From IMG/VR virus record IMGVR_UViG_3300046505_000145, positions 1-34,064 of that record: a stretch of DNA of 34,064 bases; one strand, written 5' to 3'. Both the position numbers and the translations under genes were made by a program. The stretch is from a virus. How positions within the stretch are numbered: the stretch's first letter is position 1; every line of letters starts with the position of its first letter. Below, in pieces: positions 9,915-32,393 of this stretch. The notes under the pieces were generated by a model. It was not told the DNA's origin, ran no database searches, and saw only the letters and a program-made list of their open reading frames with translations.

Positions 9915-10388
9915 TTAACTGCCGGCCCCGAGCGCAGCATCGAGCAGCGTGTATACTTCTGCTTCATCATACGCAGGCTTCTCGCTGTGCAGCTTGATCG
10001 ATGAGATATCGCCGACATTTAATTCACCGCTGATGTGCAAACGGTAATTCGGCAGGATGATGATCGGGTTTTCAGCGCCGACCGTTCCGACCGGCGTGCA
10101 CAGGAGCGAAACGTTCAAGCCGCGCATTTCCTGCAGGTCCGTCAGCGTCTGCGCTGTGGTTACATCCAGCGAGGATGTTTCGATCTTCGCAGTGATCTCA
10201 AGCGCGACCTTGCCGCGCTGAGTCTCAACGCTGTTCTGGTCCCACGCTACCTTGACGAACGGCTTTCCTTTCAGATCGCCGATGTCCGTCGCGTCGGCCC
10301 ATGATGCAGCGAGCGTCAGATCCACTGCATCCACAACGTCATGCTGCAAAACTTTTACGGAACCTAATATCGATTTCAGAACACCCAT
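9915..10388 (-). CDS. Tail tube-like protein, copy 2
   Basis: A 157-aa protein, clearly paralogous to the preceding 152-aa gene: both begin MG(V/A)(L/F)KSILGSVK, and share ATDIGDLKGKPFVKV, NVSLLCTPVGT and GDISSIK. The position just before the chaperones and tape measure protein, the size and the predicted beta content suit a siphovirus tail-tube or tail-terminator-proximal protein. An intrinsic terminator follows. The duplicates have diverged mainly in the 90-120 region and at the C-terminus. I infer that one builds the tube and the other is a variant or minor tube or connector protein. Confidence 0.75.
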   Translation of the reverse strand: MGVLKSILGSVKVLQHDVVDAVDLTLAASWADATDIGDLKGKPFVKVAWDQNSVETQRGKVALEITAKIETSSLDVTTAQTLTDLQEMRGLNVSLLCTPVGTVGAENPIIILPNYRLHISGELNVGDISSIKLHSEKPAYDEAEVYTLLDAALGAGS

Positions 10389-10406: not shown

Positions 10407-10865
10407 TTATGTGAGCGCAGTCGCGCGTAATGTATAGATATCGGTTTCATCGTATGCCGGTTTCTCACCCGACATTTTGATAGACGATATATCGCCCAGG
10501 TTCAGTTCACCGCTCAAGAGGAGCGGGAAGTTCCTCACGATCACAATCGGATTTGCCGCGCTGAGTGTTCCGACTGGCGTGCACAACAGCGAAACGTTTT
10601 TACCGCGCATTCCCTTCAACGCTGTCAGCGTTGCAGCCGTTGTGATATCCAGCGTGGATGTTTCGAACTTCGCAGCGAGCTCCAAGGGGATCGGTCCGGA
10701 TTGCGACGGCACATTCTGCTGGTCCCACGTGACCTTCACGAATGGCTTTCCTTTCAGATCGCCGATGTCCGTTGCCGCAGCCCATGATGCTGCGAGTGTA
10801 AGGTTTGTCGCAATTGCATTCTGCACAATTTTTACAGAACCTAATATCGATTTAAAAGCACCCAT
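10407..10865 (-). CDS. Tail tube-like protein, copy 1
   Basis: A 152-aa protein and the first of the tandem pair. It carries the same landmark motifs as copy 2: ILGSVK at the N-terminus, LTLAASWA, ATDIGDLKGKPFVKV, GMRGKNVSLLCTPVGT, and GDISSIKMSGEKPAYDE near the end. It is separated from copy 2 by 18 bp, so the pair is probably co-transcribed. Whether both are virion components cannot be decided from sequence. Confidence 0.75.
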   Translation of the reverse strand: MGAFKSILGSVKIVQNAIATNLTLAASWAAATDIGDLKGKPFVKVTWDQQNVPSQSGPIPLELAAKFETSTLDITTAATLTALKGMRGKNVSLLCTPVGTLSAANPIVIVRNFPLLLSGELNLGDISSIKMSGEKPAYDETDIYTLRATALT

Positions 10866-17460: not shown

Positions 17461-18039
17461 TTAATTAGTGCTTGGCGCTGTGAAAGCCGCAATCGCCTGC
17501 GAATCAAAACTTCCCTTGTTATCGACGTAATTTTTTAACGACGTATTTTTCTCACCTGCATCGGCACCTGTCTTGTTCTCTGTAGTTTTTGTTTGCCTGG
17601 AAGCCGGATGCACCGATAAAGCATCGATCACTTTCATGGTCGCATCGGGAGCTGCATCATAGAGAGCTTCATACTTTTCTTTCCACTCTGCAGGCGATAA
17701 TTTTTTATCCGTCTCCGTGACCTTCTTGATGTAGTCGGCTTTCTTCTGCGCCTGTTCAGCCTTGATGCGATTCTGCATTGCCGTCTCCGCTTCGGACGCA
17801 CGCTGCTCTTGTTTCAACAGCATATCCTTCAGCGTTTTAATTTCAGCGAGAGCCACAACAACTTCATTGGGGAGTGTGACTTGCTGTGCATCTTCTTTCT
17901 TTGCAGGTTCAGCAGGTTGTTTCGCAGCTTCCGCTTCAAGTGCTGCGATCTTTGCTTCCACTTCTGTTTTTTTCGCAGCATCGAGTGTCACCGATGCGAG
18001 GAACGATTTCAATTCTAAAATCAATTTTTGCAGGTTCAT
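17461..18039 (-). CDS. Capsid scaffolding protein
   Basis: A 192-aa protein that is helical and highly charged, with coiled coil about residues 15-45 and 65-110 and a Lys/Glu/Ala/Gln bias. The C-terminus is polar. This matches the scaffold part of the Mu I/Z gene. I see no Ser-protease (S49/S78) motif, which differs from Mu where the same gene also encodes a protease. It is the first gene of the leftward late operon, 149 bp from the rightward operon. Confidence 0.75.
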   Translation of the reverse strand: MNLQKLILELKSFLASVTLDAAKKTEVEAKIAALEAEAAKQPAEPAKKEDAQQVTLPNEVVVALAEIKTLKDMLLKQEQRASEAETAMQNRIKAEQAQKKADYIKKVTETDKKLSPAEWKEKYEALYDAAPDATMKVIDALSVHPASRQTKTTENKTGADAGEKNTSLKNYVDNKGSFDSQAIAAFTAPSTN

Positions 18040-18188
18040 CTTTTTTCCTTTTCCTTTTTCCGTCTACCATCTACCAAATTTCTGTATCAATATAATTTCT
18101 TCGAATAACCCGTGATGTCCATTAGTACCTATAGCCATCTCAGCATAAATTATTTTTTTATGTTAGAACTGAACGATAAGGAGTCTCT
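18040..18188. promoter_or_regulatory. Divergent late promoter region
   Basis: A 149-bp AT-rich gap between divergent late operons. On the - strand TATATT (complement of 18090-18095) could be a -10 box, and TATAAT on the + strand is at 18091-18096. Neither has a good -35 at 17 bp, which would suit activator-dependent late promoters as in Mu. No clear operator palindrome was found. Confidence 0.5.
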
Positions 18189-19039: not shown

Positions 19040-19557
19040 GCGATAAGAAATACAAATCACAGCCATCGACAAAAACCAAGCGCGAATGGCTAAACCTTTA
19101 TTTCGAAGACAAGCGCAGCGTCAAAGCCATCGCCGACGATTATGGTTATCCCGAATACACCGTCTATCGCGTACTGAAGAAAATGGACCCGGAGAAGATG
19201 GAACGCTCCGATAAAGGCCAGACACACAAAACGCCGATTATCGATGTGGACTTTGACAAGCTTGCTCTCGAAGGCGAATCACCTGAGACACAGCTCGGAA
19301 TGATGATTCAGGAATCTATACGCGGAATCTCGCAAAAGAAAAAACTGACGGTCGGCCAGTTATTGCTCTACACGAATCAGCTCACCGGCGCTCTGAAAAA
19401 ACTCCGTTCCGTGCAGTTCGGACAAATGGCAAAGAACCTTGATGTGAAAATAGTTGAACGTCTCATCCGCCGGTACGAACCCGAGGCAAGCGCAATGCGC
19501 ATCATCGAGGTAACGAAGGAAGTCATCGCAGAAGCGAAAGCGGACAAAAACGCATGA
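19036..19557 (+). CDS. Mu gp27-like protein with HTH (possible small terminase)
   Basis: A 173-aa protein. The N-terminal part has an HTH-like unit (SVKAIADDYGYPEYTVYRVLKKM, about residues 28-51) and the rest is helical. In Mu the DUF3486-type gene sits just before the terminase large-subunit gene and probably acts as the DNA-recognition subunit for packaging. It overlaps the terminase gene by ATGA. Confidence 0.75.
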   Translation: MSDKKYKSQPSTKTKREWLNLYFEDKRSVKAIADDYGYPEYTVYRVLKKMDPEKMERSDKGQTHKTPIIDVDFDKLALEGESPETQLGMMIQESIRGISQKKKLTVGQLLLYTNQLTGALKKLRSVQFGQMAKNLDVKIVERLIRRYEPEASAMRIIEVTKEVIAEAKADKNA

Positions 19558-21128
19558 AAGAATTTTCAGTTATAGAACAGCAGGTTGACGAGCAGGAACG
19601 CAAGCTCATTGAAGATGCTGCGTTTGGCAAAGGCCTGAAATCTCTACCTGCCGACTGGGACCGGAACCGCGAGAAGCGTATCAAGAAGGCAAGCAAGAGC
19701 TTTTTTTATTTTGCGATGGAATATTTTCCGCAATGGTTCACGTTTGCATTTTGCATCGTGCACGTCAAGATGCTGGCCGCTGCCCTGAGCAATGACAGGA
19801 AAATACATCTCATCGCTGCCGAGCGCGGTATCGGTAAAACGCGATTCTTCCGTGTCTTCAAAGTGTGGTGCGCATGCTTCGGTATCAAGCATCATTACTC
19901 CAAAGCCAGCGACACGTTGGACCTTGTGGAAAAGGATTTCCGGTACGTGCGCGATATTATCAAATTCAATCCAAAGATATCTTCTGACTTCGGCAAAATA
20001 ATCGATGATGCATGGGACACGCTGCACTCGTTTCGCATACTGCCGCACAAGTATAATCCGGAGGGAACGACATTCGTCGCGCATAGTTACACGGTAACAC
20101 CGCGCGGCGAGTTGGGCGATACGCGCGTGGACTTTGAAGAGTTTGACGACTTTGAAGATTTCAGCACGTCCATCAATTCGGAAATTAGTAAATCGAAGCT
20201 CGACGTGATCGAGCGTGACTTTCATCCAGCTCTCACCGAAACGGGCTGCGCTGTGTATCTGGGAAATAATGCGCGCACGACGTGCCTGATAAACATCCTG
20301 GAGGAAATGTCGCACACGGATCGCACTGCGCAGCATCCCGCCTTTATCGTTTCCATCTTCGATGCGTGGGATGAAAAGAATTCACGCGCACTATGGTATC
20401 AACGCTATCCGTACAAAACGGAAGATGAGATGCGTCTCGCTTTGCAATTATCGGTGAGCGTATGGAATGCGGAATACCGCCAGAAGCCGTCGCCTCCGGA
20501 AGGCGCTCGATTCCTGTTGAAGCACTGGGTCACGTATAAAACCACTCCGAAGGATGCTGTCGGAATCATCTTCTGCGATCCGGCTTTCGGCGAGACATCG
20601 GATTTTAAAACACTCGTCGTACTGCTCTATTCTCCATCGATGAAAAAGTTTATCGTTCCCGCCGCATTCGTTCGCCGCTGCGGATGGGAGGAATATTTTC
20701 TGGCGATGTATGAAGTCTATAATCTTTTCCGATCGCATTTATTATTTATCGGATGGGAAAGCAACTTCGCACAGGCACAGTATCTGGAGTTTCGGAAAAT
20801 ATATATTTCCACACGCAACCTGCCCGAGCTTCCGATCCGTCACATAGAAGTTGAAGGGGAGAAGTTCTGGCGCATCGAGCAGCTTGAGACGCCGTACTCA
20901 CTCGGAAGTATTCTATTCATTGAAACATTTTTGCAAACGCGGGACGGTATCGAAGCGCAGTCACAGCTCATCGGATACATCGGAAAGAAAACAGCATCGA
21001 AGCGCGTTGACTTTTGCGATGCGCTTGCCTCCGCATACAAACAAGTATGGCCGATAGCCATGCGCGGCGGATCGAACGACACAAGTATTCTCACTGGCGG
21101 CAAACGCCATTCGTCTGAAAGGTACTGA
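19554..21128 (+). CDS. Terminase large subunit (Mu gp28-like)
   Basis: A 524-aa ATPase-nuclease. A Walker A-like loop, AAERGIGKTR, lies at about residues 88-97 and an acidic Walker B region, VDFEEFDDFED, at about 192-202. The nuclease domain begins IIFCDPAFGETSDF (D342), continues with WESNFAQ (about 401) and ends with VDFCDALASAYK (D487), the spacing of RNase H-like terminase nucleases. It pumps DNA into the capsid through the portal and cuts it. Mu-like phages package by headful from an integrated copy, so adjoining host DNA would be expected in virions. Confidence 0.93.
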   Translation: MKEFSVIEQQVDEQERKLIEDAAFGKGLKSLPADWDRNREKRIKKASKSFFYFAMEYFPQWFTFAFCIVHVKMLAAALSNDRKIHLIAAERGIGKTRFFRVFKVWCACFGIKHHYSKASDTLDLVEKDFRYVRDIIKFNPKISSDFGKIIDDAWDTLHSFRILPHKYNPEGTTFVAHSYTVTPRGELGDTRVDFEEFDDFEDFSTSINSEISKSKLDVIERDFHPALTETGCAVYLGNNARTTCLINILEEMSHTDRTAQHPAFIVSIFDAWDEKNSRALWYQRYPYKTEDEMRLALQLSVSVWNAEYRQKPSPPEGARFLLKHWVTYKTTPKDAVGIIFCDPAFGETSDFKTLVVLLYSPSMKKFIVPAAFVRRCGWEEYFLAMYEVYNLFRSHLLFIGWESNFAQAQYLEFRKIYISTRNLPELPIRHIEVEGEKFWRIEQLETPYSLGSILFIETFLQTRDGIEAQSQLIGYIGKKTASKRVDFCDALASAYKQVWPIAMRGGSNDTSILTGGKRHSSERY

Positions 21129-22366: not shown

Positions 22367-22370
22367 CTTT

Positions 22371-22405
22371 CTCCCCCTTACCAAGGGGGAGATGAAGAGG
22401 GGGTT
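22371..22405 (+). repeat. Dispersed CCCCTCCTTA-type repeat, copy 3
   Basis: The divergent form CTCCCCCTTACCAAGGGGGAG is followed by ATGAAGAGGGGGTT, between the portal and gpG-like genes. On the mRNA strand its end supplies GAGGGGG, 8 bp before the gpG ATG, so the repeat may provide the ribosome site for that gene. Confidence 0.8.
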
Positions 22406-23485: not shown

Positions 23486-23739
<254 letters not shown>

Positions 23740-26593: not shown

Positions 26594-26725
26594 TTTTACT
26601 TCGTTCTCTTGACGGGATTCGAACCCGCAACCTTCTCATGGTGTCTCCAGAAAGATTCATCATCCTTCGGCTTGGAGTTTCCAACTACGAGCAACTGACG
26701 CCATTCCAGCTTCAAGAGAACCATC
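26594..26725 (-). CDS. 43-codon ORF coinciding with tRNA-like RNA
   Basis: Reads MMVLLKLEWRQLLVVG... and ends VAGSNPVKRTK before TAA. The stop lies just before the ribosome site of the next gene, and the upstream gene stop abuts its start (TAAATGATG), so the spacing is that of a real gene. However, the same DNA carries a complete tRNA T-arm, and -GSNP- is the usual translation artefact of a T-arm. Protein and RNA are therefore alternatives, or a dual-coding sequence. Confidence 0.4.
26603..26721 (-). ncRNA. tRNA-like structured RNA (119 nt)
   Basis: On the - strand GTTCTCTTGA (26712-26721) pairs perfectly with TCAAGAGAAC (26603-26612). Inside, directly at the 3' side, is a canonical T-arm: GCGGG TTCGAAT CCCGT with a complete TTCRANY loop. 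A possible D-arm GCTG/CAGT with GG in the loop follows the 5' acceptor strand. Between them lie CTCCA/TGGAG and AAGGAT/ATCTTT helices instead of an ordinary anticodon arm. There is no CCA (CGA instead). About 119 nt is too long for a plain tRNA, and no anticodon can be assigned. It may be a degenerate tRNA with an insertion or a tRNA mimic. Confidence 0.55.
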
Positions 26726-26727
26726 AT

Positions 26728-27246
26728 TTAAATATTTTCAATCGTTACAGCTTCGCTTTTGTAAAGGCCGGTGTAGCGGAATGTTTCCTTTCCGGTAAGC
26801 TCCGCTTTGAGCGCTGCTTCAGCTATGGGATATGCAGCCGCTTTATTTTCTTCAAGCGTGCTCACCGATGCGTTACGCTTCATTGCACCGCCCTCGTAGA
26901 CTTCGAATTCGAACGTATATTTTTTCTTAGCTGCCGGCTGTGCTTGAGGCAGAGGAGGAAGCGAACTATCCGCAGGCAATTCCGGCGCCGGTGTTTCTAC
27001 TTGAGATTTTTTCCACTCGTCAATGAATTTCTTCGTCAACGTTTCGACGGCGCAGTCCGCAAATACTTCGGCATCCTCATGGGGCTGACCGAGATCTAAT
27101 TCGGTTTTGAATACTTTTTGGTATTCCGCCTGCTGCAATCCCGCCAACTCTTCCTTTTTATCCTGGGGAAGTGCCTCGTAAATGGCAACCATTTCAATAA
27201 TATCCGGCGAAGCGTCTTCAATATTTTTCTTTCCAAACAATTTCAT
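26728..27246 (-). CDS. Hypothetical early phage protein
   Basis: A 172-aa protein with AAAAGGAG upstream of its ATG. The N-terminal half is acidic and helical, the middle Pro-rich (ETPAPELPADSSLPPLPQAQP), and the C-terminus looks like a beta domain (KKYTFEFEVYEGGAM...). I do not recognise it. It is the gene after Gam in the early operon, and its stop is adjacent to the tRNA-like element. Confidence 0.7.
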   Translation of the reverse strand: MKLFGKKNIEDASPDIIEMVAIYEALPQDKKEELAGLQQAEYQKVFKTELDLGQPHEDAEVFADCAVETLTKKFIDEWKKSQVETPAPELPADSSLPPLPQAQPAAKKKYTFEFEVYEGGAMKRNASVSTLEENKAAAYPIAEAALKAELTGKETFRYTGLYKSEAVTIENI

Positions 27247-27268: not shown

Positions 27269-27820
27269 TTATTGAGCGTTAGGGATTTCATCCCACTTGA
27301 TGTCAGCGTAAAACTTTTCCTCCTGGTCGATCTTTATACCGACAGCGGCCAGTTTTGAATCATCGATCTCTTTCGCCGCGTACGATGCGAGGATGCTGTC
27401 TTTATCGATTTCCTCTTTCGAGCGGATGTAATCCTTCCCGAACCGCACCTTCTTGAGCAGCTCCAACACCGTATCCCATTTGTATTTTCGGTTCAACAGG
27501 GCAACCTTGGGCGGTGTCGTTCTGAATCCGACCGTACCATGCACGAGATCCTTACTGCGCAGCGCTGCGAAGTCTGCCTTGTTGTTAATGCAGAATTTCT
27601 CAAGCTCTTTTTCGAGCAGAGATTTCGTCGTGCGTACGAGATACGTATTGATTTCATACTCATCCCGGATCTTCTGGATCTGTTCGTTCATTTCTGCTTC
27701 CTGCTTTTGCAGTTGCTGTTCGCAGTCCGCAATTTTCAGAAGCGTTTGATCTGCATCGCCGAATGAACGGATCGGCTCCGGCTGAGGAACATCCGGCAAT
27801 ATTCTTGGTTCTGTTGTCAT
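27269..27820 (-). CDS. gam: Gam-like host nuclease inhibitor
   Basis: A 183-aa protein. It has a coiled coil at about residues 28-75 and a C-terminal domain with FGKDYIRSKEEIDKDSILASY. Size and pattern match Mu Gam (174 aa). Mu Gam binds DNA ends as a dimer and protects them from exonuclease (RecBCD); it is related to Ku. It would guard phage DNA ends during infection before integration. It is in the early operon as in Mu. Confidence 0.85.
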   Translation of the reverse strand: MTTEPRILPDVPQPEPIRSFGDADQTLLKIADCEQQLQKQEAEMNEQIQKIRDEYEINTYLVRTTKSLLEKELEKFCINNKADFAALRSKDLVHGTVGFRTTPPKVALLNRKYKWDTVLELLKKVRFGKDYIRSKEEIDKDSILASYAAKEIDDSKLAAVGIKIDQEEKFYADIKWDEIPNAQ

Positions 27821-28698: not shown

Positions 28699-29206
28699 GC
28701 CGTCCGTCCGATCTGTTGTTTATTGATGCGATTTTATTAAATACATCGCCGAGTGACATCGGCTGTGATTTGCTTTTTTTATTTTGTTCCAGCTTCGCGA
28801 GCGTTGCCTCGTATTCCGGTGTGCCGCGTTCCAATTGCCCAAGCTTGATGCGAAGAGACCTATTATCGGAGGAACTCACATCCTTGCTTAAGCTTTCGTC
28901 ACGCGACACAACCGTTTCGGGACCTGCGAACATCTTTAAATTAATCTTACCGTCTGGAAATCTTGTTCCCTTCAGCACATCGTCCGCTCTGCGCTTCGCA
29001 CAGTTGAGTACGAATTTTTTATAGTCCTTTGGTATTTTATCCGACCTGCGCACGAGATACGTTTCGAGCTCGATCATCAAGCTCTGCCAGTTCTTTACGT
29101 GCGAGTAACGATAGTGCAGCAGATCGAGCATGCGCTGCGTCATGACCAATTCGGGAAATACCTTTGAGACCCAGATTATTTTCTCGATAGATTTCTGCTT
29201 ACTCAT
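28691..29206 (-). CDS. Hypothetical early protein
   Basis: A 171-aa protein from ATG 29206 (overlapping the GemA stop), beginning MSKQKSIEKIIWVSKVFPEL; upstream in-frame ATGs would lie deeper in GemA. The C-terminal third is Lys/Ser rich. It has no Walker or HTH motif. Unrecognised. Confidence 0.65.
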   Translation of the reverse strand: MSKQKSIEKIIWVSKVFPELVMTQRMLDLLHYRYSHVKNWQSLMIELETYLVRRSDKIPKDYKKFVLNCAKRRADDVLKGTRFPDGKINLKMFAGPETVVSRDESLSKDVSSSDNRSLRIKLGQLERGTPEYEATLAKLEQNKKSKSQPMSLGDVFNKIASINNRSDGRHE

Positions 29207-29729
29207 GATCGGCTCCATCGACCACGCCGGCCTTGAGTCGTTTTTCAATGCGCTCAAGCCGTTTGATGAGATACCATGCTTCCTGATTCGTCAGCTCGTC
29301 AAGCTTCACGCGCTTTGCATCCTTGAGCCTCACAACCCACTCCTTTGCTTTTTTCCAGAACCAGTCGTGTCCATATTTCTCATCGATAATAGAGTAGCGG
29401 CCGAGCTTCACGATCCGCTTGATCTGCCCGGATGTCGCTTTCGGTTCGAGTGAGTTGTTTGTCTGCGTGACCTGCGCTCCAAACCGGCGTGCATCGGATA
29501 TTTCCTTATTCAGTTCGCGCAACTGTTGAAGCGTGAGGTCTGCGAACGAACAGATCCCGCAGAAACGCTGAGCGCAGAGATCATGCACAATACCAAGCTC
29601 GTGATCCGCCGCATGCAGCGATGCAATCAGCACCTTGCGTTCTGTTTCTTCCGGAGTCCCGCCTTTGTATTGCCGTCCGGAGCGCGAACGGTGAACGAAA
29701 AGCCCGGGTGATGTTTGTTCGATAAGCAT
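29199..29729 (-). CDS. gemA: GemA-like (Mu gp16/DUF1018) regulatory protein
   Basis: A 176-aa protein. Residues about 98-162 contain ATSGQIKRIVKLGRY, YGHDWFWKKAKEWVVRL and DELTNQEAWYLIKRLERI, the signature of the GemA/gp16 family. Mu GemA alters host DNA supercoiling and gene expression. A CGIC motif at about 57-60 may bind metal. The start overlaps the previous stop (TAATG). Confidence 0.8.
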   Translation of the reverse strand: MLIEQTSPGLFVHRSRSGRQYKGGTPEETERKVLIASLHAADHELGIVHDLCAQRFCGICSFADLTLQQLRELNKEISDARRFGAQVTQTNNSLEPKATSGQIKRIVKLGRYSIIDEKYGHDWFWKKAKEWVVRLKDAKRVKLDELTNQEAWYLIKRLERIEKRLKAGVVDGADHE

Positions 29730-30073
29730 TATTGCACCGATACCTGAGCAAGAACGCGTGCGGACTGATTTTTATCGAGCAACTTCGTAAGCTTCGTATC
29801 CGGCACATCCATCCCGAATTTTTTCAGCAATCCAAAGATCATTTTCCGCGCACCGTTTTTTTCGTGTTGAGCGATAACCAACTCCTTGTCTTCTTTCGAG
29901 AGCATGCGCAGCTCTTGATATTCTTTCGATTCCCGCAGCTTTGCATTGAGCTCGTGCTTGCGCTCTTCGATTTCAAGCCGTCGTGTGATCGTGTTCGCCA
30001 GCGATTGATCGACCATCAACATCTGCCGACGCGCTTCTTCTCTTGTATCCGCCTTGATTAATGAATTGCCCAT
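29729..30073 (-). CDS. Coiled-coil protein in place of MuB
   Basis: A 114-aa, charged, helical protein (RRLEIEERKHELNAKLRESK). It follows the transposase where Mu has the MuB AAA+ ATPase (about 312 aa), but has no Walker A and is far too short. It overlaps the transposase by TAATG. The function is unknown; it may be a transposase accessory. Confidence 0.6.
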   Translation of the reverse strand: MGNSLIKADTREEARRQMLMVDQSLANTITRRLEIEERKHELNAKLRESKEYQELRMLSKEDKELVIAQHEKNGARKMIFGLLKKFGMDVPDTKLTKLLDKNQSARVLAQVSVQ

Positions 30074-31941
30074 TATTCCGTCTCCTCGTTTTGTTGGTTT
30101 TTAAAAAGGTTGCTGTAGAATTCTTCACCGAGCTTCATATATTCATCGTCCATCGGTACTGTGTTCTCGGCCGCAACCGGTGTTTTTAAATTCTCATAAA
30201 TTGATTTTTCAATATTTCGCACGCCGATCTGTTCGTGCGCTGCAGGAGACTTCGCTTTCCAGAGTTCATCCATTTGCACGAGCGTGGCTTTTGCCTCGGC
30301 AACTTCACGCGTTCGCTTCTTGATGATGTTCCGTGTCTTGCGATATGCCGTTGCAATTTCACGCGTCGGAGTCTCAATGCGATTCTTGCCGCGCAGGTCC
30401 CATGCTCCGCAGATGCAGTTTCCGTTCAGGTCGCATATCCAAGCCTGATACATGTTTGCCGGATTGACAACAACTTCAAACGTCTCACTGTACCGCTCGC
30501 ATGGTATTCCTTCACCATCCGGCACGTACACAATTTTCTTTGCACTTATCGCGGCAGGTGTAACGAACACGCCCTGCTTGATGCCTGATCGGAATTTTCG
30601 AGAGAAGAGAAAAGCGAGTTTCATCGGATCGATCTTGAACGGCTCGAATGATTTATAAGCGCGGTCGAAGGCATCTTTCAGTGAGCGCGGGCGGTTTGCA
30701 TTTTCCTCGTGATGTGATTTGTAGGAAGGGTTCATCCACGAGGTGCGCTGCGCTTCACGATAATAGCCATTCAGATATACTTCAAATTTTTCTATCCACT
30801 CAGAGAGGGTGTGTGTTGGCTTGACGTAACTTAGTTGACGTGTTGGCTTGCGGCTTTCTTCCTGACTTGGAGAGTAAGATCTTGAGAACGCGCAGAATTC
30901 ATCTTTAAATATTCGATGCTGCCGTTCGTGCGATCCCTTGCCGTATGGCTGGTATGGCTCTGAGAAAATGACGCGCGTTTTTGTTTCATGATCCTGCGTT
31001 GTGTAAAGTCCGCGCAGGAATCTCTGTACTGATTCGTTTGTGAATTCCGTGCCATTATCGAGCAGCCATGTGGACGGCCTGCCCCAATTATAAACGACAT
31101 CGAGCAGCACGCCGAGCACATCATCCTGTGAAACGCTTTTTTCGAATGCTTTCCATGCCAGCGGGTATCGCGTTTTCGAATCGAATGCGAACACGCAGAC
31201 CATGGATACATCCTTGCCGTTGTATTTGAATTTTGTTTTCGTCAGGTCTTCCATTCCCCAGCTTTTCAAAACGCGATCCGGGACAGTCCAGCCATCGAGA
31301 GATACCTGCTCAAGGAATTCGAATTCAGACCAGAGATCGCGTCGCACGCGTGGTGTATGTTTTTGTTCGAACTTACTTTCCTGATGAAATAAAAGGCGCT
31401 GCGGTTCAATCTCTCTTGCCCGGGCCCGGAAATATCGGATCGGAAGATCGACACCTTCAAACTGGCGGCGCATGAGATTGTAGGCGAGCTGCACATTGGC
31501 GCATTGTGCATTTTGAATATAAATACTATCGAACATTACGAGAGCTGCTGCAGGAATTTCTTTTTTTGTTGTGCCACGGTCGGCACGAGCCTTGCGTTGC
31601 ACACGCTCCGGATTTTTCCACATCCGATAAACGCTCCAATAACTCACATCATATTTCTTTGCAATTTTGGAAACAGCATCGGATTCGTTCTTCGCATTCA
31701 TCGCGTTCAGTTCACTAAGCACCATCTCACGCTGTTCATTGCTGAGATGCTTTTTCTTTCGTGCGTCATCCTTCACGATCACGAAATAGCGCGGTGTGCC
31801 GTTGGCATGCGTTCCATCCTGCGTGAGATCGTATCGCATACCGGCATGATCGATAAAGAGATAATCGGATGTTATTGCCATCTTGCGTACGTATTGGATT
31901 GAAAGTTTCTTTTGACACGCGAATTGTTCAAAGGAGATCAT
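30073..31941 (-). CDS. Mu-like DDE transposase (MuA-type)
   Basis: A 622-aa protein (MuA is 663). N-terminal HTH-like region with SKIAKKYDVSYWSVYRMWKNP near residues 91-111. The DDE core is visible: D216 in EQVSLDGWTV, D295 in TWLLDNGTEF and E339 in GKGSHERQH. It binds the phage ends, nicks them and joins them to target DNA, in integration and in replicative transposition. It overlaps the CP76-like gene (ATGA) and the next gene (TAATG). Confidence 0.95.
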   Translation of the reverse strand: MISFEQFACQKKLSIQYVRKMAITSDYLFIDHAGMRYDLTQDGTHANGTPRYFVIVKDDARKKKHLSNEQREMVLSELNAMNAKNESDAVSKIAKKYDVSYWSVYRMWKNPERVQRKARADRGTTKKEIPAAALVMFDSIYIQNAQCANVQLAYNLMRRQFEGVDLPIRYFRARAREIEPQRLLFHQESKFEQKHTPRVRRDLWSEFEFLEQVSLDGWTVPDRVLKSWGMEDLTKTKFKYNGKDVSMVCVFAFDSKTRYPLAWKAFEKSVSQDDVLGVLLDVVYNWGRPSTWLLDNGTEFTNESVQRFLRGLYTTQDHETKTRVIFSEPYQPYGKGSHERQHRIFKDEFCAFSRSYSPSQEESRKPTRQLSYVKPTHTLSEWIEKFEVYLNGYYREAQRTSWMNPSYKSHHEENANRPRSLKDAFDRAYKSFEPFKIDPMKLAFLFSRKFRSGIKQGVFVTPAAISAKKIVYVPDGEGIPCERYSETFEVVVNPANMYQAWICDLNGNCICGAWDLRGKNRIETPTREIATAYRKTRNIIKKRTREVAEAKATLVQMDELWKAKSPAAHEQIGVRNIEKSIYENLKTPVAAENTVPMDDEYMKLGEEFYSNLFKNQQNEETE

Positions 31942-32393
31942 AGAGACATTTCCATTTGATTAAAGTCTTTGATTCGTTTTTGTAGGGAAGCACTGTATTC
32001 CATTACGGCTTGCAGCGCGGAGTTTGTCTCTTCTAATTTTGCGGGGGAAGGTGATTGAAAGAAGTCCATCAACAATTTACTCGCTGCAGAGCATAGCGTA
32101 TTGTATTCGTTCACTGCATCGACTTCATCACGCTTGTCGTGGAAGCCGCGAGGTGCGCGGACAGTGAGAAATCCACAGAGTCGATTCAAATATTTTAGAA
32201 CGGAATAATCGCCGGAAGATTTCATGAGTGGAATAAGGTGTTCAATCGGGAACTTTACGCCGGACTCGTCTGTTGGTAATCCAGCGCGATACAAATACGA
32301 AGGGCTAATTCCGGTCTCATCGGCCAACTGTGCAACACTCTTTGCGTTGCGGTGGATAGTTGTGTACAGAAGCGTTTTAAGGGATTGTGTCAT
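31938..32393 (-). CDS. CP76/CII-like phage regulatory protein
   Basis: A 151-aa protein. The N-terminus has a HTH-like unit (SVAQLADETGISPSYLYRAGLP) and the rest is helical; the layout matches the phage CP76/CII family that controls lysis-lysogeny in Mu-like and P2-like phages. GGAGGGAG lies upstream. It is between Ner-like and transposase genes. Confidence 0.75.
   Translation of the reverse strand: MTQSLKTLLYTTIHRNAKSVAQLADETGISPSYLYRAGLPTDESGVKFPIEHLIPLMKSSGDYSVLKYLNRLCGFLTVRAPRGFHDKRDEVDAVNEYNTLCSAASKLLMDFFQSPSPAKLEETNSALQAVMEYSASLQKRIKDFNQMEMSL

Follow-up and report, generated by a model that had tools for sequence, protein, structure and literature searches.

A tRNA-derived element with a replaced anticodon loop lies between two genes of a Mu-like phage operon

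A real, well-formed tRNA-derived element that had been missed by standard tools was found between two genes of the early operon of a Mu-like transposable phage. The window, that is, the whole stretch of DNA analyzed here, is a complete virus record of 34,064 bases. Our preferred reading, held tentatively and at somewhat less than an even chance, is that the element derives from a class-I tRNA gene whose anticodon loop was replaced by a 49-nt hairpin, and that it would act as a non-decoding tRNA-like RNA within the early operon mRNA, cut by RNase P and by 3' tRNA nucleases.

Genomic Context of the Element

The window is a Mu-like transposable phage (Table 1), in which the terminase and portal labels were assigned from position and weak similarity. 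On the minus strand, 17 genes are tightly packed from position 32393 to 24384, and this packing suggests that the operon is transcribed as one unit. The sole gap of more than 22 nt among these genes measures 145 nt and separates the 172-aa gene from the 72-aa gene; the element is located inside it, on the strand of the operon, exactly between the stop codon of the former gene and the ribosome site of the latter. The 72-aa gene has its own ribosome site (AAAGGAG), just past the element.

Other parts of the window also presented particular arrangements. A 6-bp tandem repeat, AGCCGG (positions 23488–23735; 41 copies, 84% matches), lies in the otherwise long gap that separates the leftward operon from the head genes; both strands have open frames in which it would encode Arg-Leu or Arg-Ser repeats. 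Adjacent and clearly similar proteins of about 155 aa (MGVLKSILGSVK/MGAFKSILGSVK) are encoded at 9915–10388 and 10407–10865, which suggests a tandem duplication of a structural gene.

Table 1. Positions in the window of the tRNA-like element, its parts, and the genes and open reading frame considered in this work.
Feature	Position	Strand	Basis or remark
Large terminase-like protein	19554-21128		Label from position and weak similarity
Downstream operon gene, 72 aa	26364-26582	-	48% identical homologue in the related phage L003
43-codon open reading frame overlapping the element (MMVLLKLEWRQ...KVAGSNPVKRTK), doubtful gene	26596-26727	-	Open frame
tRNA-like element, 119 nt with the 9-bp closing stem (115-nt tRNA body with a 7-bp acceptor stem)	26603-26721	-	Fold; tRNA genes matched by covariance model R1 along its positions 1-119
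Acceptor/closing stem, 3' strand CAAGAGAAC	26603-26611	-	Sequence
T arm, GCGGG-UUCGAAU-CCCGU	26612-26628	-	Sequence; pairing probability up to 0.97
Variable loop AGGUU, 5 nt (class-I length)	26629-26633	-	Aligned to AGGUU of tRNA-Arg and AGGUC of tRNA-Gly
Anticodon stem, 3' strand UGAGA	26634-26638	-	Alignment to tRNAs
Loop of 49 nt, 42 nt longer than the 7-nt anticodon loop that it replaces	26639-26687	-	In none of the matched tRNAs
Anticodon stem, 5' strand GCUCG (other register CUCGU, 26687-26691)	26688-26692	-	Pairs with UGAGA/AUGAG
D arm, stem GCUG/CAGU, 9-nt loop GAAUGGCGU with GG	26694-26710	-	Sequence; R1 alignment to tRNA D arms
Acceptor/closing stem, 5' strand GUUCUCUUG	26713-26721	-	Perfect 9-bp complement of 26603-26611
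Upstream operon gene, 172 aa, function not assigned	26728-27246	-	53% identical homologue in L003
Mu Gam-like protein	27269-27820		
GemA-like protein	29199-29729		
rve-type transposase	30073-31941		

Structure of the tRNA-Like Element

Read along the minus strand, the element runs GUUCUCUUG AA GCUG GAAUGGCGU CAGU U GCUCG (49 nt) UGAGA AGGUU GCGGG UUCGAAU CCCGU CAAGAGAAC. All stems of the cloverleaf were intact, with 0–1 mismatch depending on the register. The two strands of the closing stem paired over 9 bp with a probability of about 1.0. The initial annotation had described a perfect stem of 10 bp; 9 bp of it stood, and the tenth pair (A-U) competes with the first pair of the T stem. The length of about 119 nt proposed there was the same as that obtained by us, and the T arm, also described as perfect, was so apart from one G-U pair. 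The T-arm sequence GGTTCGANTCC occurs once in the window (0.06 occurrences expected).

As regards the middle part, the 49-nt loop was predicted to fold into the two helices already noticed in the initial annotation, CUCCA/UGGAG and AAGGAU/AUCUUU, the latter with an additional outer G and C (GAAGGAU/AUCUUUC); their probabilities were about 0.67 and 0.97, respectively. The accompanying statement that the middle is not an anticodon arm had to be abandoned, as the D arm and the anticodon stem are both there and only the anticodon loop is abnormal. These two elements were formed in only about half of the predicted ensemble, and the folding energy was only mildly low (z of -1.4 with flanks and -2.2 for the 119 nt).

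The expectation by chance was estimated in several ways. The probability of finding a perfect 9-nt complement 60–150 nt upstream of a random site was 2.75e-4, and a T arm with an adjoining stem of at least 9 bp appeared in 3 of 1500 shuffled windows. Given the acceptor stem and the T arm, a D arm with GG together with a 5/5 anticodon stem, both in the right places, was obtained in 0.11% of 50,000 shuffles of the inner part.

Similarity to Ordinary tRNA Genes

A covariance model (R1) was built from the element alone, with its predicted fold, and was searched against 81 genomes of the KSB1 phylum, which was chosen because one DUF3164 locus led there and which may not be the phylum of the host. 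Class-I tRNA genes (74–79 nt) were matched end to end in 66 of the 81 genomes, with scores of up to 48.6 bits. The best loci corresponded to tRNA-Arg(UCG) (48.6 bits) and tRNA-Gly(GCC) (43.3 bits) as named by ARAGORN, which was used to call the eight best loci, the remaining matches being taken as tRNAs on the basis of length and score. When aligned with the element, the tRNAs were devoid only of the extra anticodon-loop sequence and everything else was in register; of the 28 nt that extend from the anticodon stem to the end of the T arm, 25 were identical to tRNA-Gly(GCC). This end-to-end match indicated that the element is a tRNA body that carries a structured loop of 49 nt where a tRNA has its 7-nt anticodon loop. 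The initial suggestions of a tRNA with an insertion or a tRNA mimic thus agreed with the alignment, in which the enlarged anticodon loop was the only difference from normal tRNAs.

A control model was constructed in the same way from rnaC of phage T4, whose T arm is equally perfect. Its scores on the tRNA loci found with R1 did not exceed 15.6 bits, indicating that the tRNA match of the element rests on more than the T arm. In the acceptor, D, anticodon, and T stems, two-sided changes with pairing kept with respect to the tRNAs affected 13 pairs and 31 cells (vs. 6.1 pairs and 9.0 cells for shuffles; slid controls gave no more than 8 cells), values higher than in any of 500 shuffles; the alignment was fitted to the R1 model and includes known tRNAs, so that these figures reflect the fit to a tRNA body and not selection on the element. 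All four pairs of the D stem were conserved, one of them being compensatory, and those of the anticodon stem were kept through double changes.

Deviations from a Decoding tRNA

The element has the cloverleaf body of a functional tRNA (acceptor stem, D arm, anticodon stem, and T arm), but the 7-nt anticodon loop of such a tRNA, with its U33 and its anticodon, is missing. It also presents A8 and G14 where tRNAs have U8 and A14. When the acceptor stem is read as 7 bp, positions 73–76 are ACGA and not NCCA, and there is no encoded CCA end.

The extra sequence is located exactly in the anticodon loop, which is the site of tRNA introns, as would be expected of a working tRNA from which a small intron is spliced out to yield a decoding molecule. 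We consider this very improbable. When single excisions from the loop were traced by hand on the sequence for both registers of the anticodon stem, position 33 was always A or G and never U; thus, the element is not simply a decoding tRNA interrupted by an intron. Bacterial tRNA introns are self-splicing introns of group I or II, and the 42–49 nt present here are too short for either of them. Rfam gave no intron match in the element, the 49-nt loop being far from the more than 200 nt of a group I intron core, and the archaeal helix-bulge pattern (3-nt bulges on opposite strands around 4 bp) was not seen in the predicted fold.

ARAGORN detected no tRNA in the element, neither by default nor with introns allowed, and no tmRNA. 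Rfam, a search of which had been proposed in the initial annotation, returned nothing for the element at gathering thresholds: the tRNA family RF00005 reached 14.6 bits, below its cut-off of 29, and a match to sR23 (15.6 bits; cut-off 45) was attributed to chance. Both RF00005 and ARAGORN relaxed to 90% preferred a class-II-like fold of the 3' 91–92 nt. This tRNA-His-like fold, as given by ARAGORN at 90%, contains two mismatches in the acceptor and ignores the perfect upstream strand and the D arm. It was rejected as the weaker reading, and the class-I fold is preferred.

The 43-Codon Open Reading Frame

The open reading frame that overlaps the element fills the gap just as the initial annotation had stated: it has 43 codons, starts directly after the TAA of the upstream gene and ends 13 nt before the next gene. 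It might be a translated gene, translationally coupled to the preceding one, the tRNA likeness being secondary or part of a dual-coding arrangement. Such a gene would be consistent with the way in which the frame exactly occupies the space from the TAA to the following ribosome site, the operon having no other gap above 22 nt, and with a coding score (0.18 bits per codon) in the range of true genes. This score is nevertheless intermediate (26th percentile of true gene pieces) and was reached by 8% of open non-coding frames and by 2% of open shuffles, a coding signal far weaker than the end-to-end match to tRNAs. A run of 43 codons stayed open in about 8% of shuffles, and the carboxy end KVAGSNPV is simply the T arm translated in frame.

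No Shine-Dalgarno sequence or other ribosome site was found in the sequence upstream of the frame, and its protein gave no family or homologue in any search of collections that contain only one related phage, L003, in which the corresponding gap holds no open reading frame. A weak match of the frame in an Enterococcus phage contig (E 0.4) was considered a chance hit. Taken together, these data make a small gene improbable; the dual-coding proposal of the initial annotation found no support, in view of the missing homologue and Shine-Dalgarno sequence, the intermediate coding score, and the absence of both element and frame at this place in L003. The open reading frame is probably a chance frame.

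Related Phages and Search for Further Copies

Protein queries with the transposase, Gam, terminase, 103-aa, and 172-aa genes against viral contigs yielded one true relative, IMGVR_UViG_3300049914_000197 (L003), along with one distant Gam match. L003 is the closest relative of the phage in the window, with 89 and 93% identity for the terminase and the major capsid protein, respectively. Both genes flanking the element are kept in L003, and the gap between them, devoid of the element, holds an unrelated palindromic repeat. This indicated that the element is dispensable for this phage type and that the gap accepts insertions. The palindromic repeat (CTCCCC...GGGGAG core) is present in three places of L003, one of them (18020–18095) being the gap that matches the site of the element, and a diverged copy occurs in the window between two head genes (22369–22402); it appears to be a REP-like element that these phages carry in dispersed copies. 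Another difference between the operons is a gene swap, the Mu Gam-like gene of the window being replaced by one for a DUF3164 protein in L003 (L003:18639–19325) with conserved neighbors.

Searches of viral contigs, phages, plasmids, and 82 genomes of the KSB1 phylum gave no further copy of the element, nor was there a second one in the window or in either related phage record. Exact DNA patterns for the T arm/acceptor, the D arm, and the loop hairpin gave no match in viral contigs, and BLASTN with the element produced only short matches, mostly to tRNA T arms. Two genome scans revealed no close relative; the one based on DUF3164 led mostly to proteobacterial prophages without the operon, and a search of the KSB1 phylum for the phage transposase was negative.

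The main rival to our reading is that a host tRNA gene was captured by the phage and inactivated by an insertion into its anticodon loop, persisting as an inert passenger in a gap that tolerates insertions. The unrelated repeat that fills the same gap in L003 and recurs in these phages, the lack of copies of the element elsewhere, the destruction of the anticodon, and the high similarity of the 3' part to tRNA-Gly all point in this direction, and we regard such a capture as a serious possibility, albeit one well short of even. Mildly against it, the cloverleaf has kept all its stems, with a closing stem lengthened to 9 bp, despite the loss of the decoding loop; a decaying gene would be expected to lose stem pairs too, unless the capture was recent. 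The absence of the element from L003 and its perfect inverted ends of 10 bp (GTTCTCTTGA/TCAAGAGAAC) would also suit a MITE, a small transposon-like insertion for which these ends would be the terminal inverted repeats. However, the search for a second copy in the window and in both related phage records was negative, no target duplication is visible at the flanks, and the ends lie exactly at the place required for a tRNA acceptor stem, one next to the T arm and the other separated from the D arm by two nucleotides, so that this origin is hardly credible.

Discussion

Since no homologue of the element was found, we infer its function. RNase P and the 3' tRNA nucleases recognize their substrates by the acceptor/T-arm stack; in the element, this stack is contained in a same-strand transcript which, as judged from gene packing, would be polycistronic. 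In the reading that we prefer, this stack would be recognized as a pre-tRNA in the operon transcript; RNase P would cut at its 5' end, a few bases beyond the point at which the 172-aa gene stops, and trimming by the 3' tRNA nucleases would end just ahead of the ribosome site of the 72-aa gene. These cuts would release a stable, non-decoding RNA of about 115–119 nt and would separate the two parts of the mRNA. Because the stack is placed between a stop codon and a ribosome site on the transcribed strand, processing would split the mRNA without harm to either gene. The anatomy of the element makes its processing by RNase P and RNase Z plausible. An RCCA end helps RNase P, and the encoded ACGA 3' end, a poor match to this motif, counts against the participation of this enzyme. 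RNase P is known to cut polycistronic mRNAs as well as phage M3 RNA and phage C4 RNA, which are not tRNAs (review PMC11143913).

In a broader interpretation, the element could be a functional anticodon-less tRNA mimic of a transposable phage, with the decoding loop exchanged for a dedicated hairpin. Such a mimic might cut the operon mRNA through the tRNA-processing enzymes of the host or, as a free RNA, occupy a tRNA-binding host protein (e.g., a tRNA-targeting defence enzyme, a synthetase, or EF-Tu). We regard this interpretation as a possibility, less likely than not.

Among known systems, the element is comparable to class-I bacterial tRNAs in its acceptor stem, D arm with GG, anticodon stem, 5-nt variable loop, and T arm, the nearest being tRNA-Arg(UCG) according to the model score and tRNA-Gly(GCC) according to the 3' sequence. 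It differs from them in the structured 49-nt loop, the lack of an anticodon, A8/G14, the 9-bp closing stem, and the absence of a CCA end. The tRNA-like domain of tmRNA likewise retains the T arm and the acceptor, with a long helix in place of the anticodon arm; in contrast with the element, it has no D stem, and tmRNA includes a tag reading frame and pseudoknots. Using cmscan, only the T arm of the element was matched by tmRNA (8.5 bits vs. a cut-off of 47). C4 acts as a short antisense regulator of an antirepressor, and nothing with a comparable role was seen at the element. The C4 antisense RNA of phages P1/P7 and the phage M3 RNA are non-tRNA phage RNAs cut by RNase P (PMC11143913), and no sequence match of either to the element was obtained with Rfam.

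The species 1 (rnaC, 139 nt) and species 2 (rnaD, 119 nt) RNAs of phage T4 are phage-encoded small RNAs of about the size of the element. The former shares with it a perfect T-arm end with an acceptor-like stem, has no anticodon arm, and is likewise not matched by Rfam, neither rnaC nor rnaD being covered by any Rfam family at the gathering threshold. In rnaC (L099:1409–1547), the acceptor-like stem pairs at 5 of 7 positions. Both T4 RNAs are encoded in a tRNA cluster, whereas the element stands alone between two operon genes. The R1 model scored only 13.5 bits on rnaC and gave no match to rnaD; the rnaC model, with its low scores on tRNAs (15.6 bits at most), did not match the element. These weak or empty cross-searches indicated that the architectures of the element and of the two T4 RNAs differ. 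To our knowledge, anticodon-less phage tRNA-like RNAs such as T4 species 1 and 2 have been known for decades with no agreement on their function; our literature searches gave no account of a similar element in Mu-like phages. Since elements of this kind escape both Rfam and ARAGORN, more of them may be hidden in phage genomes. The element described here is compact, is located alone in a Mu-like operon, and is derived from a class-I tRNA changed only in the anticodon loop, thus offering a clean test of tRNA bodies as phage mRNA-processing signals vs. decoys for tRNA-binding host factors.
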